Assembly (NCBI RefSeq): GCF_028858535.1
Contig: NZ_JAPMOU010000046.1
Coordinates: 1 to 39,998 of the forward strand
Direction of reading: 5' to 3'
DNA from: Spartinivicinus poritis
Lineage (GTDB): Bacteria > Pseudomonadota > Gammaproteobacteria > Pseudomonadales > Zooshikellaceae
DNA: 39,998 nucleotides
In this document: positions 32,626 to 36,139 of the stretch, piece by piece
Position numbering within the stretch: the first letter of the stretch is position 1
Layout of the letters: every line of letters starts with the position of its first letter
The notes under the pieces: generated by a model
Told to the model about the DNA's origin: nothing
What the model saw: only the letters and a program-made list of their open reading frames with translations
Databases searched by the model: none
Translations under genes and position numbers: made by a program

Positions 32626-34803
32626 CTATCGACAAGCTATAGGTAAATATGCATTTTTTATTTCATCACTAGAGCATTGCCAGTATAATTCACCTGTCGA
32701 CTCATCCTGCTGTACAATAAGTTGTAACACCAAACCATTAAGATTCTCATCCATCTTTTCACCACCAAGATTAATAAATATATTTCCTTGATTAACCTCA
32801 ATAGAGGTAATGTAGTCAGATTGATAGTCAGTGGCTGGTAATATTTGCCCTATTCCATTTGTAACTTCAATTAACGGAGTGCCTTCAGTAATCAGACGAC
32901 GAATTTCTTGCTGAATTGGTTGAGCAGAATAATATGCGCCTGACACTTGAGAACGCAGTGTGTAATCTTGATAAGCTGGTATTGCCACTGCCGCTAGAAT
33001 ACCTATCATAGCAACAACTTTGTAATCACCAACATAAAGTAAATCGAGAATACTTTGCTCAAAGCTAAACTCTAATGCTAGGTAGTTTTCATTAAAATCC
33101 AGATTAACACCAAGACTACCTTTGTCGGCAAAGCTAAGTTGGCCTGCATGAGGTAATGAGAAAATGTCTACTTGAGCACCACTAATATCAGATAGTGCAT
33201 TGAGTAATTGTAAATACACATGATATGACGTTCGAGATAACTTTACTTTTGAAGTAGAGTAGCCTAAAAATGCACTGGATAAGTCTTGCTTCTGAGATTG
33301 AGTTAACCACTCACCAATATTATGGGTATCTTTTCTGCTGGCTCGTTCTATTAAGGGTTGTGGTACAGCAGAGAGGATCATGTATCCACTCTCTTCAATC
33401 CAATAGTAATGCGTCTTTAATTGAGCAGCAATTTCCCCTACTACAGGAGACTCTTGACTTATAGTATTGCTCCATTTATCTAGGTTCATAAAAGGTGTTG
33501 TGATATGTTTTATAGTAACCCCATTTTTTTTATGTTCTTGATAATCTATCCATTTTTTCTGTTGTGCATTATTGATTAATTGTTTGAGTTGCTCTGGTTT
33601 ACTTAACCGAACTGCAATGAAGTCACTTATTGAGTCAGAAAAGTAGATAACTTCTGGACCAAGTATTGAAAGTAACTGTTCGATTGAAAAACCAGTTTGT
33701 TTCTTAAATTCTTCTTTGGCTTTGAAATATTCTGGCGATGAACCTTTAACCATCACAGTGGTTGCTTCAATTTGCCTGTATTGGGCTTCTGTCGGTAACG
33801 ATAAAATGCCTACAGAGTCAATTTCACCTCTAGCGGAAAGATCAAAATGATTCTTAACACTGGGTAAGTAGGCCCTAAAACCAGCAACTGGCATTTCTGC
33901 GATGACTTTTAAGCGTGTTTTGTCTGCGCTCGTTCCATAGCCAAATGCTAGTGCGCTGACTTTGTCAAAACCAGACATTTTTAGGCCTGCTAGTTGTTCT
34001 GGCTTCATAGTTTTTTGAGCAATAGGCAAAATAAGCTTAGCGTTAATGTAACCAAATAAACCTTTTCCGCTTGCGTCTGTTTTTGCTTCAACTGAATACA
34101 TTGGATGATCTTTAACAGGAGCTAAACTATTTAAAGTACTTTTTAGTTTATCTGGCTGTGCTCCCATTGCTGCAACTAATTGAAAATGACCTGTTTGAGC
34201 ATTGAATTGAAACTGTCCATTTACTCCCATGGGGGCAAATTGTATGCTGCCATTTCCTTGTGCATCAATTTTGTCAATAATCTGAAGCATTGGCTGTTGT
34301 TGTAATAACTGGGTAAAGCTTGCTTCAAATTCTGATACCTGTTTAAAATCAAGCTTGGTCGCGACTACTACATAAGGCATCATTGGATTGTCAGGATTAT
34401 TTAATACTGCAGCCTCAAATGGGCCATTAATATGTTTAATTAATAAGGATGCAATTGGCTTAATGGCATCTTCCATTTTAATTAATAGATTCTGATACAG
34501 ACCTTGCTGGATGGCTTTTAACTGTGCTACATGTTGCTCATTACCTTGGGCATACTTGAATCCACTCTCTACGTCAGCAAATAAAAACCACACATTTGGT
34601 ACTCGTAGATAGGCCAGAGCATCTGCTGGTAACTGGGTTCTTAACCAGCTTTTTTCAGTAAAGCTAGCCATCTTAAGTTGAACTTTTTCTGGAGCAGCCT
34701 TGGGCTTGTCAGCGGTTTGTTTATCGCTCTCAGAGCAACCAGTCAATATACCAACAAACAAAAGTAAAATAGTCAGATATTGGCGCATATTATTCACTTT
34801 CAT
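32626..34803 (-). CDS. Lipoprotein fused to a type IV pilin-like C-terminal domain
   Basis: A 725-aa chimera. It starts with a lipoprotein signal (TILLLFVGILTGC, Cys23) and a large periplasmic domain beginning LPADALAYLRVPN that resembles DUF3352-type lipoproteins (tentative). At about residue 596 it runs into VVAMIGILAAVAIPAYQDYT, the N-terminal helix of a major type IV pilin. A pilin-like body follows, ending with two cysteines (710 and 724, WQC...IAC) as in the pilin disulfide loop. The prepilin cleavage block (GFTLIEL) is missing and the helix is internal. The ATG at 34803 has AGAGGTG 9 bases upstream, inside a MITE end. The ATG at 34788 is an alternative with a more usual signal start. 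Confidence 0.8.
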   Translation of the reverse strand: MKVNNMRQYLTILLLFVGILTGCSESDKQTADKPKAAPEKVQLKMASFTEKSWLRTQLPADALAYLRVPNVWFLFADVESGFKYAQGNEQHVAQLKAIQQGLYQNLLIKMEDAIKPIASLLIKHINGPFEAAVLNNPDNPMMPYVVVATKLDFKQVSEFEASFTQLLQQQPMLQIIDKIDAQGNGSIQFAPMGVNGQFQFNAQTGHFQLVAAMGAQPDKLKSTLNSLAPVKDHPMYSVEAKTDASGKGLFGYINAKLILPIAQKTMKPEQLAGLKMSGFDKVSALAFGYGTSADKTRLKVIAEMPVAGFRAYLPSVKNHFDLSARGEIDSVGILSLPTEAQYRQIEATTVMVKGSSPEYFKAKEEFKKQTGFSIEQLLSILGPEVIYFSDSISDFIAVRLSKPEQLKQLINNAQQKKWIDYQEHKKNGVTIKHITTPFMNLDKWSNTISQESPVVGEIAAQLKTHYYWIEESGYMILSAVPQPLIERASRKDTHNIGEWLTQSQKQDLSSAFLGYSTSKVKLSRTSYHVYLQLLNALSDISGAQVDIFSLPHAGQLSFADKGSLGVNLDFNENYLALEFSFEQSILDLLYVGDYKVVAMIGILAAVAIPAYQDYTLRSQVSGAYYSAQPIQQEIRRLITEGTPLIEVTNGIGQILPATDYQSDYITSIEVNQGNIFINLGGEKMDENLNGLVLQLIVQQDESTGELYWQCSSDEIKNAYLPIACR

Positions 34804-34808
34804 GCTGT

Positions 34809-34911
34809 AGGCACCTCTAATAATTGTTTGCTGTCTCTGGTCTTTTGGTTAATTATCAATCAATGCGTTGATTTGAAGGCATGCTGGTGGCCTGTCGAAA
34901 AGCAACAACAC
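34809..34911. mobile_element. Partial copy of the IS5-like MITE end
   Basis: AGGCACCTCTAATAATTG and the following bases match the reverse complement of 15211-15313 at about 90 of 103 positions. Only one end is present. The end lies 5 bases from the start codon of the lipoprotein-pilin gene and, as at the ArsR gene, places AGAGGT at ribosome-site distance. Confidence 0.8.
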
Positions 34912-35160
34912 TTTGATGTAATCAAAGAACTTACTGAATTATATACCCAATGTGAGGTTATAGCGGCAGTCTCGTACACGACAGTTTGAAAATATGGGTA
35001 TCAAGGCAGGATTTAAACTATGCCAAGTCATACCTCTTCCCACAGAAATGAATATAATTGAATTTCAACCAATAAATCGAATTTAATCCAGCAAGCTGGC
35101 ACGGTTAAACAGCAGAATACTGATTTCTTATATAAAATCGGCTAGTAAGGCTTAATTAGC
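34912..35160. other. Intergenic stretch, nothing recognised
   Basis: AT-rich sequence between the MITE end and the small-RNA locus. A short plus-strand frame runs through its first 80 bases but has no recognisable similarity or ribosome site. No RNA gene is evident. Confidence 0.4.
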
Positions 35161-35164
35161 TGTC

Positions 35165-35190
35165 AAAAAAAGGCTACCAATAGGTAGCCT
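35165..35190 (-). terminator. Intrinsic terminator of the candidate small RNA
   Basis: Perfect 8-bp stem AGGCTACC / GGTAGCCT (35171-35178 and 35183-35190) with a 4-nt loop, followed on the minus strand by at least six T residues. Confidence 0.88.
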
Positions 35191-35240
35191 GAATGTGTGA
35201 TTAGCCTGATGAGGAGATAACCTGTTAGGTTACGCTCATT
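35165..35240 (-). ncRNA. Candidate Fur-regulated small RNA (RyhB-type)
   Basis: A transcript of about 76 nt is predicted on the minus strand from near 35240 to the T tract at 35165-35170. The upstream promoter is overlapped by a Fur box. The RNA would have a 5' hairpin (TAACCT-AAC-AGGTTA), then an unpaired pyrimidine-rich segment containing UCUCCUCAUCAGG, which could pair with ribosome binding sites. It ends in a strong terminator, AGGCTACC-TATT-GGTAGCCT plus a run of T. There is no ORF and no other gene for the Fur box to serve. The order hairpin, single-stranded seed, terminator is that of RyhB-like and PrrF-like RNAs. No similarity to the RyhB core sequence was found. Confidence 0.65.
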
Positions 35241-35244
35241 CTGT

Positions 35245-35275
35245 AAATGATAATCGTTATCATTTGAAAGAGCAA
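35245..35275 (-). promoter_or_regulatory. Fur box overlapping a sigma70 promoter
   Basis: The arms AAATGATAA and TTATCATTT around TCG (35245-35265) form a perfect dyad matching the GATAAT-type Fur consensus. On the minus strand, TTGCTC (35270-35275) and TATCAT (35247-35252) are a -35/-10 pair with a 17-bp spacer. The Fur site covers the spacer and -10, so iron-loaded Fur would block transcription. Confidence 0.85.
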
Positions 35276-35280
35276 GTTTT

Positions 35281-35725
35281 TTCTTGTGATGCTTTTTGCT
35301 TTTTGAGCCTTTCTGAGGGCATATCTCACTAAAACAGGTGTTAAGCGCTTGTTTGTATTCCAGTATCTAGGCTGCTAAACCAGAGACAGCCAGCCTCTAC
35401 CCCCAAAATACCTCACTTAAGTCTTAAGCCTCTGACAGAGCATTAGCCCGCTTTTTACTCCTATCTATCCAAACTGCATTAGTGGTGTCTCGAACTCGTC
35501 CCTAATCCGCTGTCATTGCGACAAAAAAATCTTACCCGGAATCCAGAGGAGCGGAAAAAAGCACTCATCCTCCCCCTGCGGGTTTTACGTCATAAAAGTT
35601 TTGTGCAATTGAAAAGAGTGCAGGAGAGGAAGTTTAACCATTACTGTATAAGGGCTTTAGAGGATTTTTGTTAGTTTCATAATTGAAATAAAGTGCAGTA
35701 AATTGTAAGTAGTTACCTTGAAGAT
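35281..35725. other. Intergenic stretch, no gene seen
   Basis: About 445 bases between the Fur box and the TolA-C lipoprotein gene. No convincing ORF, tRNA or terminator. The section near 35505-35555 (CATTGCGAC...CCCGGAATCCAG) resembles common short dispersed repeats but has no second copy in the window. Confidence 0.45.
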
Positions 35726-36139
35726 TTAAATAGCTTCTGGTCTGAATATAAATCTTAATTTTTTGAAGTTTCTACTGTAAGTTGTATCATTCACATACTT
35801 GACTTCCTCAAACTGACCTACGCGCTTGATAGCATTCATGGCACTTTTATCAAATTGCATATTACCACTGGATTCAATCACCGACATTCTAAGTACACGC
35901 CCATTTCGATCAAGTTCAGTTTGAATCATTACTTCCAAACCTCTATTTGCTCCTTCAGGTTCACTCCAATTACTTAAAATGTTTTCTTGCATTTCACCTG
36001 CAATAGAAGCTGTCTTTTCAGCGCATTCGGCAGGTGTTTTACAAGGCTGTTTTTTCCAAACAGTGGTACAGCCCTGTAGTAAAACTGTAGTTATAAAAAG
36101 TAACTTTACTATGGAAGCGGTTTTTGATAGTAAATACAT
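35726..36139 (-). CDS. Lipoprotein with TonB/TolA C-terminal-like domain
   Basis: A 137-aa protein with a lipoprotein signal (IVKLLFITTVLLQGC). A C-terminal domain follows (LEVMIQTELDRNGRVLRMSVIESSGN, FDKSAMNAIKRVGQF) that matches the TonB/TolA C-terminal pattern of LDxxGxVxxxxVxxSSG then FDxxAxxAI. Stand-alone domains like this are probably periplasmic and interact with envelope proteins. It lies 13 bp downstream of a broken paralog on the same strand. Confidence 0.78.
   Translation of the reverse strand: MYLLSKTASIVKLLFITTVLLQGCTTVWKKQPCKTPAECAEKTASIAGEMQENILSNWSEPEGANRGLEVMIQTELDRNGRVLRMSVIESSGNMQFDKSAMNAIKRVGQFEEVKYVNDTTYSRNFKKLRFIFRPEAI

Follow-up and report, generated by a model that had tools for sequence, protein, structure and literature searches.

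The locus lies in a window of 39,998 nucleotides (the whole stretch of DNA analysed), between two genes of the minus strand: upstream, a gene for a TonB-domain protein (35726–36139), and downstream, a gene for a 725-aa protein with a pilin-like C-terminal part (32626–34803). Residues 617–725 of the latter protein match the pilin family PF00114, and its start looks lipoprotein-like. Positions 35165–35275 hold, on the same strand, a −35 hexamer TTGCTC (35270–35275), which agrees with TTGACA at three of six positions; a −10 hexamer TATCAT (35247–35252), separated from it by a 17-nt spacer; a perfect 9-3-9 palindrome of the Fur-box type, AAATGATAACGATTATCATTT (35245–35265, without strand), covering the spacer and the −10 hexamer; and an intrinsic terminator (35165–35190), formed by the stem AGGCTACC-TATT-GGTAGCCT (35190–35171; eight pairs, five of them G-C) and a run of seven T (35171–35165), the first of which closes the stem. 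Judged from the −10 hexamer, transcription is expected to start at about 35239–35242, and a predicted compact sRNA of the PrrF type would occupy 35165–35240 of the minus strand (76 nt from 35240 to 35165). The ORF list contains no frame of at least 40 aa inside 35240–35165, and the sole ATG there starts a frame of four codons. Coordinates and ORF list thus agree with an earlier, sequence-only reading of this DNA, which had placed a terminator about 76 nt past the expected start with no ORF between; the perfect Fur dyad that it described over the promoter is also found, at 35265–35245. Of the minus-strand promoter with ideal 17-bp spacing, the spacing and TATCAT hold; the −35 hexamer is weak and, since it agrees with the consensus at only three positions, this promoter is absent from the output of the promoter scan.

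The predicted fold of 35245–35165 has an energy of −24.5 kcal/mol (z −5.35), which none of 200 shuffles equalled; in our reading, much of this energy is supplied by the terminator. A 5' hairpin is predicted at 35209–35239 of the minus strand, with the outer stem AUGAG/CUCAU and the inner stem GUAACCU/AGGUUAU. It includes part of the core and so overlaps the predicted antisense region ACAGGTTATCTCCTCATCAGGCTAATCAC (35197–35225, minus strand). Here, AGGUUAU and CUCAU lie inside the hairpin, the CUC between them is part of an internal loop, and most of AGGCUAAUCA is unpaired. Hence, the 5' hairpin that had been proposed is indeed predicted, while the proposed UCUCCUC seed would be unpaired only partly, CUCAU being in the stem.

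A permissive scan of 34850–35700, with matches taken up to E 10, aligns the PrrF model of Rfam (RF00444) with 35164–35274 of the minus strand over model positions 1–150 (54.5 bits, E 2.7e-8). The gathering score of RF00444 is 90 bits, so a default Rfam scan misses this copy; at gathering thresholds, Rfam gives no match within the window. The core UUAUCUCCUCAUCAGGCUAAUCAC equals the RF00444 consensus without change and, as in PrrF, an intrinsic terminator follows the core and a Fur-type palindrome lies across the promoter. One PrrF property, a length of about 114–116 nt with a long 5' part, is not shared by the window copy with its approximately 76 nt. RyhB of enterobacteria and vibrios, an iron-repressed sRNA that silences iron-protein mRNAs, follows the same logic. 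Rfam includes a RyhB model and an NrrF model, and both identities were rejected, as neither model gave a match up to E 10 in 34850–35700; matches of fungal snoRNA, human snoRNA, and lncRNA models there (E 2.5–8.6) were taken as chance. An unrelated new sRNA was rejected on the basis of the end-to-end RF00444 match. The covariance search proposed in the sequence-only reading therefore has a divided outcome, with PrrF matched and RyhB not. The same reading had called the RNA new and different in sequence from RyhB/PrrF, which is wrong, given the consensus core and the end-to-end alignment; its functional guess, an iron-regulated sRNA of the RyhB/PrrF design, was well founded and has good support from both anatomy and homology. 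By sequence, the locus is a PrrF homologue below the curated Rfam threshold, with PrrF-like action by prediction: a compact third sibling.

With PrrF1 and PrrF2 of Pseudomonas the locus shares the Fur-type palindrome across the promoter, the core TTATCTCCTCATCAGGCTAATCAC, the intrinsic terminator, and the lack of an ORF; it differs from them in its short 5' hairpin, which extends into the core, in the sub-threshold score, and in its position as a third copy, separate from the pair. According to PMC2851614, P. aeruginosa has a tandem PrrF pair with RNAs of 116 and 114 nt; the genome studied here likewise has a tandem pair, at another locus, and the window copy is about one third shorter than the RNAs of P. 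aeruginosa. PMC4211561 also describes tandem PrrF genes, in one strain of P. denitrificans and one of P. mendocina. ArrF of Azotobacter is named an iron-repressed PrrF homologue in PMC2851614, and the title of a reference cited there gives sodB as its target.

The tandem pair of the same genome consists of two longer copies on the minus strand (C17:108175–108339, 65.6 bits, and C17:108411–108574, 69.5 bits, with RF00444), both also below the gathering score. The 29-nt stretch ACAGGTTATCTCCTCATCAGGCTAATCAC, which contains the PrrF core, is identical across the window copy and both tandem copies. The window terminator is closer to that of the distal copy (GGCTACC/GGTAGCC) than to that of the proximal copy (GCCACTC); the window palindrome differs from that of the proximal copy in one base; and the 5' part of the window copy is unlike both siblings. 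Because core and terminator are shared, the window copy was probably derived from the distal copy. The promoters of the window copy and of the proximal copy are identical at 27 of 35 positions, which does not decide for or against a chimera (promoter from the proximal copy, core and terminator from the distal one), since most of this identity is due to the Fur box.

The RF00444 match of the window copy spans 111 nt and is the shortest of the core-bearing matches, the others spanning 121–197 nt; the match L018 is also 111 nt long, but lacks the core. A pattern scan of the genome contigs for TTATYATT 20–50 nt before the core, possibly with the own genome outside its scope, gave one locus, L044. 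This copy and that of G010 are also short, and in both UCUCCUCAUC stays almost free of the predicted 5' hairpin (0.96 and 0.81 unpaired). In the predicted folds of the window copy and its two siblings, UCUCCUCAUC is unpaired at 0.38 vs. 0.69 and 0.76, respectively, and AGGCUAAUCA at 0.94 vs. 0.75 and 0.71.

All three genomes of the genus carry the tandem pair, and only the own genome has the window copy. The downstream gene (32626–34803) has orthologues in both congeners, G001 (88% identity) and G002 (81%), and the core is absent beside them within 1.5 kb on each side. Conservation in relatives, proposed as a check in the sequence-only reading, thus holds for core and terminator, which both the paralogues and other families retain, and fails for the window locus itself, missing in both congeners; the refuting pattern, in which relatives would share the Fur box alone and lack the terminator, was not observed. 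A repeat of about 82 bp (34830–34911) occurs in many copies in the own genome and is present in both congeners; a second repeat (35377–35661), upstream of the sRNA, recurs several times in incomplete form, in the own genome as well as in the congeners; and a 12-bp inverted repeat (34830–34841/35379–35390) surrounds the locus. The dispersed repeats flanking the window copy may account for its arrival there.

To follow the core and terminator further, we used a sequence-only model (R1), built from nine sequences including that of the window. It matches (E up to 0.001) 49 of 390 genomes of the order, in 27 of 142 genera and in eight families (f1, f2, f7, f16, f21, f35, f216, and f217); the weakest of these 49 matches, with E near 1e-4 and above, may be due to chance. 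In the class, R1 matches 3 of 369 genomes, all three of the own order, and RF00444 gives the same three. The specificity of R1 was judged by this class sample, in place of control genomes; among the 366 class genomes without an R1 match, the 20 listed comprise 2 of the own order and 18 from outside. Samples of more than 40 genomes were scanned with stricter filters, at which weak matches are lost.

The RF00444 scan of 20 stretches (19 of an earlier 20, with L093 left out and L023 added) yielded 31 matches. Only two exceed the gathering score, both in L094 (G460, family f21), where the two PrrF copies lie in tandem, their cores separated by 213 nt; all 29 matches in families other than f21 remain below it. 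G024 also exceeds the gathering score (127.5 bits), and because of the over-threshold matches in G460 and G024, f21 looks like Pseudomonadaceae. Of 14 control genomes, one (Lactococcus lactis) matched RF00444 at E up to 0.1, below the cut-off, and none at E up to 0.001. The RF00444 matches L013, L018, L019, and L021 (E 0.015 to 0.076) lack the core CTCATCA[AG]GCTA and were excluded from the copy counts.

Possible targets were sought by scanning the own genome for the core complement CTGATGAGGAGATA with up to two mismatches. This gave 68 sites, three of them the sRNA genes themselves, vs. 34 for the reversed control pattern; the excess is not used alone, because purine-rich ribosome sites may explain part of it. 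Among the 65 non-self sites, six, that of petA included, are in sense and shortly precede a possible start codon whose frame runs for 60 codons or more. With one mismatch, there are three non-self sites: two are antisense to ORFs, and one is in sense at the start of petA, the gene for the Rieske Fe-S protein of complex III (the product matches Pfam PF10399). This site, CTGATGGGGAGATA, is at the ribosome site, 6 nt before ATG. Paired with the own core of each genome, petA gives −20.8 to −28.3 kcal/mol in nine of nine genomes from five genera and families f1, f2, and f7, which include near relatives and are not independent samples. The number of dinucleotide shuffles of the region as good, per 500, is 0 in G000, G001, G002, G417, and G010, 1 in G003 and G004, 5 in G005, and 18 in G414.

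A classical target, sodB (Fe-type superoxide dismutase family), was chosen beforehand. The core pairs across its ribosome site at −22.3 to −27.0 kcal/mol in six of six genomes, and between 0 and 5 of 500 shuffles did as well. Scrambled cores as good in the own genome are 1 of 1000 for petA and 3 of 1000 for sodB. When 67 start regions from the own genome, that of sodB among them, are ranked as a background (first start codon taken, no curation), sodB comes second. The top region (−25.3 kcal/mol) belongs to an ORF named sigma-factor-like by its look (L121, minus strand, 273–864); with no evident iron link, it is possibly a chance match or an unexpected target. Pairing of sdhC, another classical target, is not convincing, with 3 to 289 of 500 shuffles as good. 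The pairing with iron-protein mRNAs suggested at the outset is hence predicted for sodB and not convincingly for sdhC. The core is pyrimidine-rich and ribosome sites are purine-rich, a tendency that shuffles control only partly; also, the pairing region is common to all three copies, so the pairing does not show that the window copy in particular acts. The Hfq gene was found in all five genomes searched.

The gene petA also figures in the literature on two other bacteria. NrrF of Neisseria is described in PMC5586341 as a Fur-controlled sRNA that directly represses petABC through its 5' UTR; it shares its target with the prediction for the window copy, and the likeness is functional, with no NrrF match at the locus. 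In P. fluorescens Pf-5, petA is among the genes given in PMC3377617 as lowered when iron is limiting; the passages covered do not mention PrrF in this context.

Taken together, the locus probably encodes a Fur-repressed, PrrF-homologous, trans-acting sRNA, a compact third sibling beside the tandem pair elsewhere in the genome. The grounds are the sequence, the homology, the paralogues, and the conserved complementarity, from which we infer expression, Fur control, Hfq dependence, and repression. With iron present, Fur would bind the palindrome across the promoter and silence it. When iron is short, the RNA of about 76 nt would be made and, presumably with the help of Hfq, the gene of which is present, its core would pair across the ribosome sites of iron-protein mRNAs, the best predicted being petA and sodB, probably along with others. 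Such pairing would block translation and expose the mRNAs to decay, and scarce iron would be spared. Counting against this interpretation are the sub-threshold Rfam score, the weak −35 hexamer, the absence of the locus from the congeners, the costlier opening of the petA-pairing stretch, and the unconvincing sdhC pairing.

Three other interpretations were weighed. That a Fur site serving another gene is combined with a chance terminator is very improbable. The parts of the locus, taken one by one, are indeed weak evidence, near the chance level: there are two terminators in 34500–36000 vs. 1.2 ± 1.0 in shuffles; the Fur score of 16 for the 19-mer of the palindrome is the window maximum, also reached in one of 20 shuffled windows; and, of the five perfect 9-3-9 palindromes in the window (shuffled mean 0.15), the four others are without Fur-like sequence. 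The palindrome could also serve a plus-strand promoter. Homology, as judged by the end-to-end PrrF match and the two paralogues, does exceed chance. Moreover, the minus-strand gene before the locus ends at 35726, the next one starts at 34803, beyond the terminator, and the plus strand of the gap has in the ORF list only a 52-codon TTG frame (35516–35674).

A PrrF copy transcribed weakly or not at all, without a function of its own, with the tandem pair doing the work, is unlikely, if less so. Such decay would fit the presence of the copy in one genome of the genus, the lack of a core in the 1.5 kb that precede the orthologues of the downstream gene in G001 and G002, the weak −35 hexamer, the dispersed repeats around the locus, and the hairpin covering part of the core; however, the perfect palindrome, the 17-nt spacing, the unchanged 29-nt core, and the intact terminator speak against it, since random decay should have damaged them as well, unless the duplication is very recent. 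We prefer the compact, Fur-repressed sibling, which allows a refinement: the hairpin closing part of the core may shift the target range or delay action, so that the copy would not be redundant with the tandem pair. This role of its own is conceivable, although rather doubtful. The 5' part unlike both siblings and the more open AGGCUAAUCA agree with it, and pairing may be weakened or delayed by a hairpin that takes up part of the core: the predicted cost of opening the petA-pairing stretch is 6.7 kcal/mol in the window copy vs. 4.2 in the proximal and 5.6 in the distal one. We judge such differences of 1–2.5 kcal/mol to be near the prediction error, however, and CUCCUCAUC alone is cheaper to open in the window copy (2.9 kcal/mol) than in the distal copy (3.5; 1.6 in the proximal one); a search for a target specific to the window copy was also without success.

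A wider interpretation can be put forward tentatively. PrrF may be an order-wide iron-sparing family, not a Pseudomonas speciality, largely hidden by the Rfam cut-off. It would have retained petA (complex III) as a target over a long time and would have been amplified locally more than once, giving pairs, triplets, and one array of five. Compact offshoots, the window copy being one, would also belong to it, and their 5' hairpin might gate the core and set a separate threshold or target order. The literature searched (subscription papers lie outside its coverage) gave no report of PrrF together with Oceanospirillales; in the available parts of the papers retrieved, PrrF appears with Halomonas only as PrrF1, an engineered scaffold or a P. 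aeruginosa example, and Marinobacter appears with PrrF only in a reference list. The present results would extend this iron-sparing RNA to families other than the one in which matches exceed the Rfam threshold; in those other families, all 29 scanned copies fall short of it. The results also name petA as a conserved predicted target. A natural triplet of two long copies and one compact copy also bears on why bacteria keep sibling sRNAs, a question left open by a review (PMC4211561).

Several loci in other genomes show further arrangements. L012 (G023:C11:489988–490113) is compact, with a Fur-type palindrome, a possible 5' hairpin, a terminator, and a diverged core CTCTCATCAGGAGC; with its 36.7 bits it was counted separately and is possibly a remote PrrF relative. 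L077 (G729) and L078 (G468) have three RF00444 units each. L076 (G622:C3:1547300–1549200) carries five head-to-tail PrrF-like units with cores 277–302 nt apart, each unit having a Fur-like stretch upstream, a core, and a terminator.
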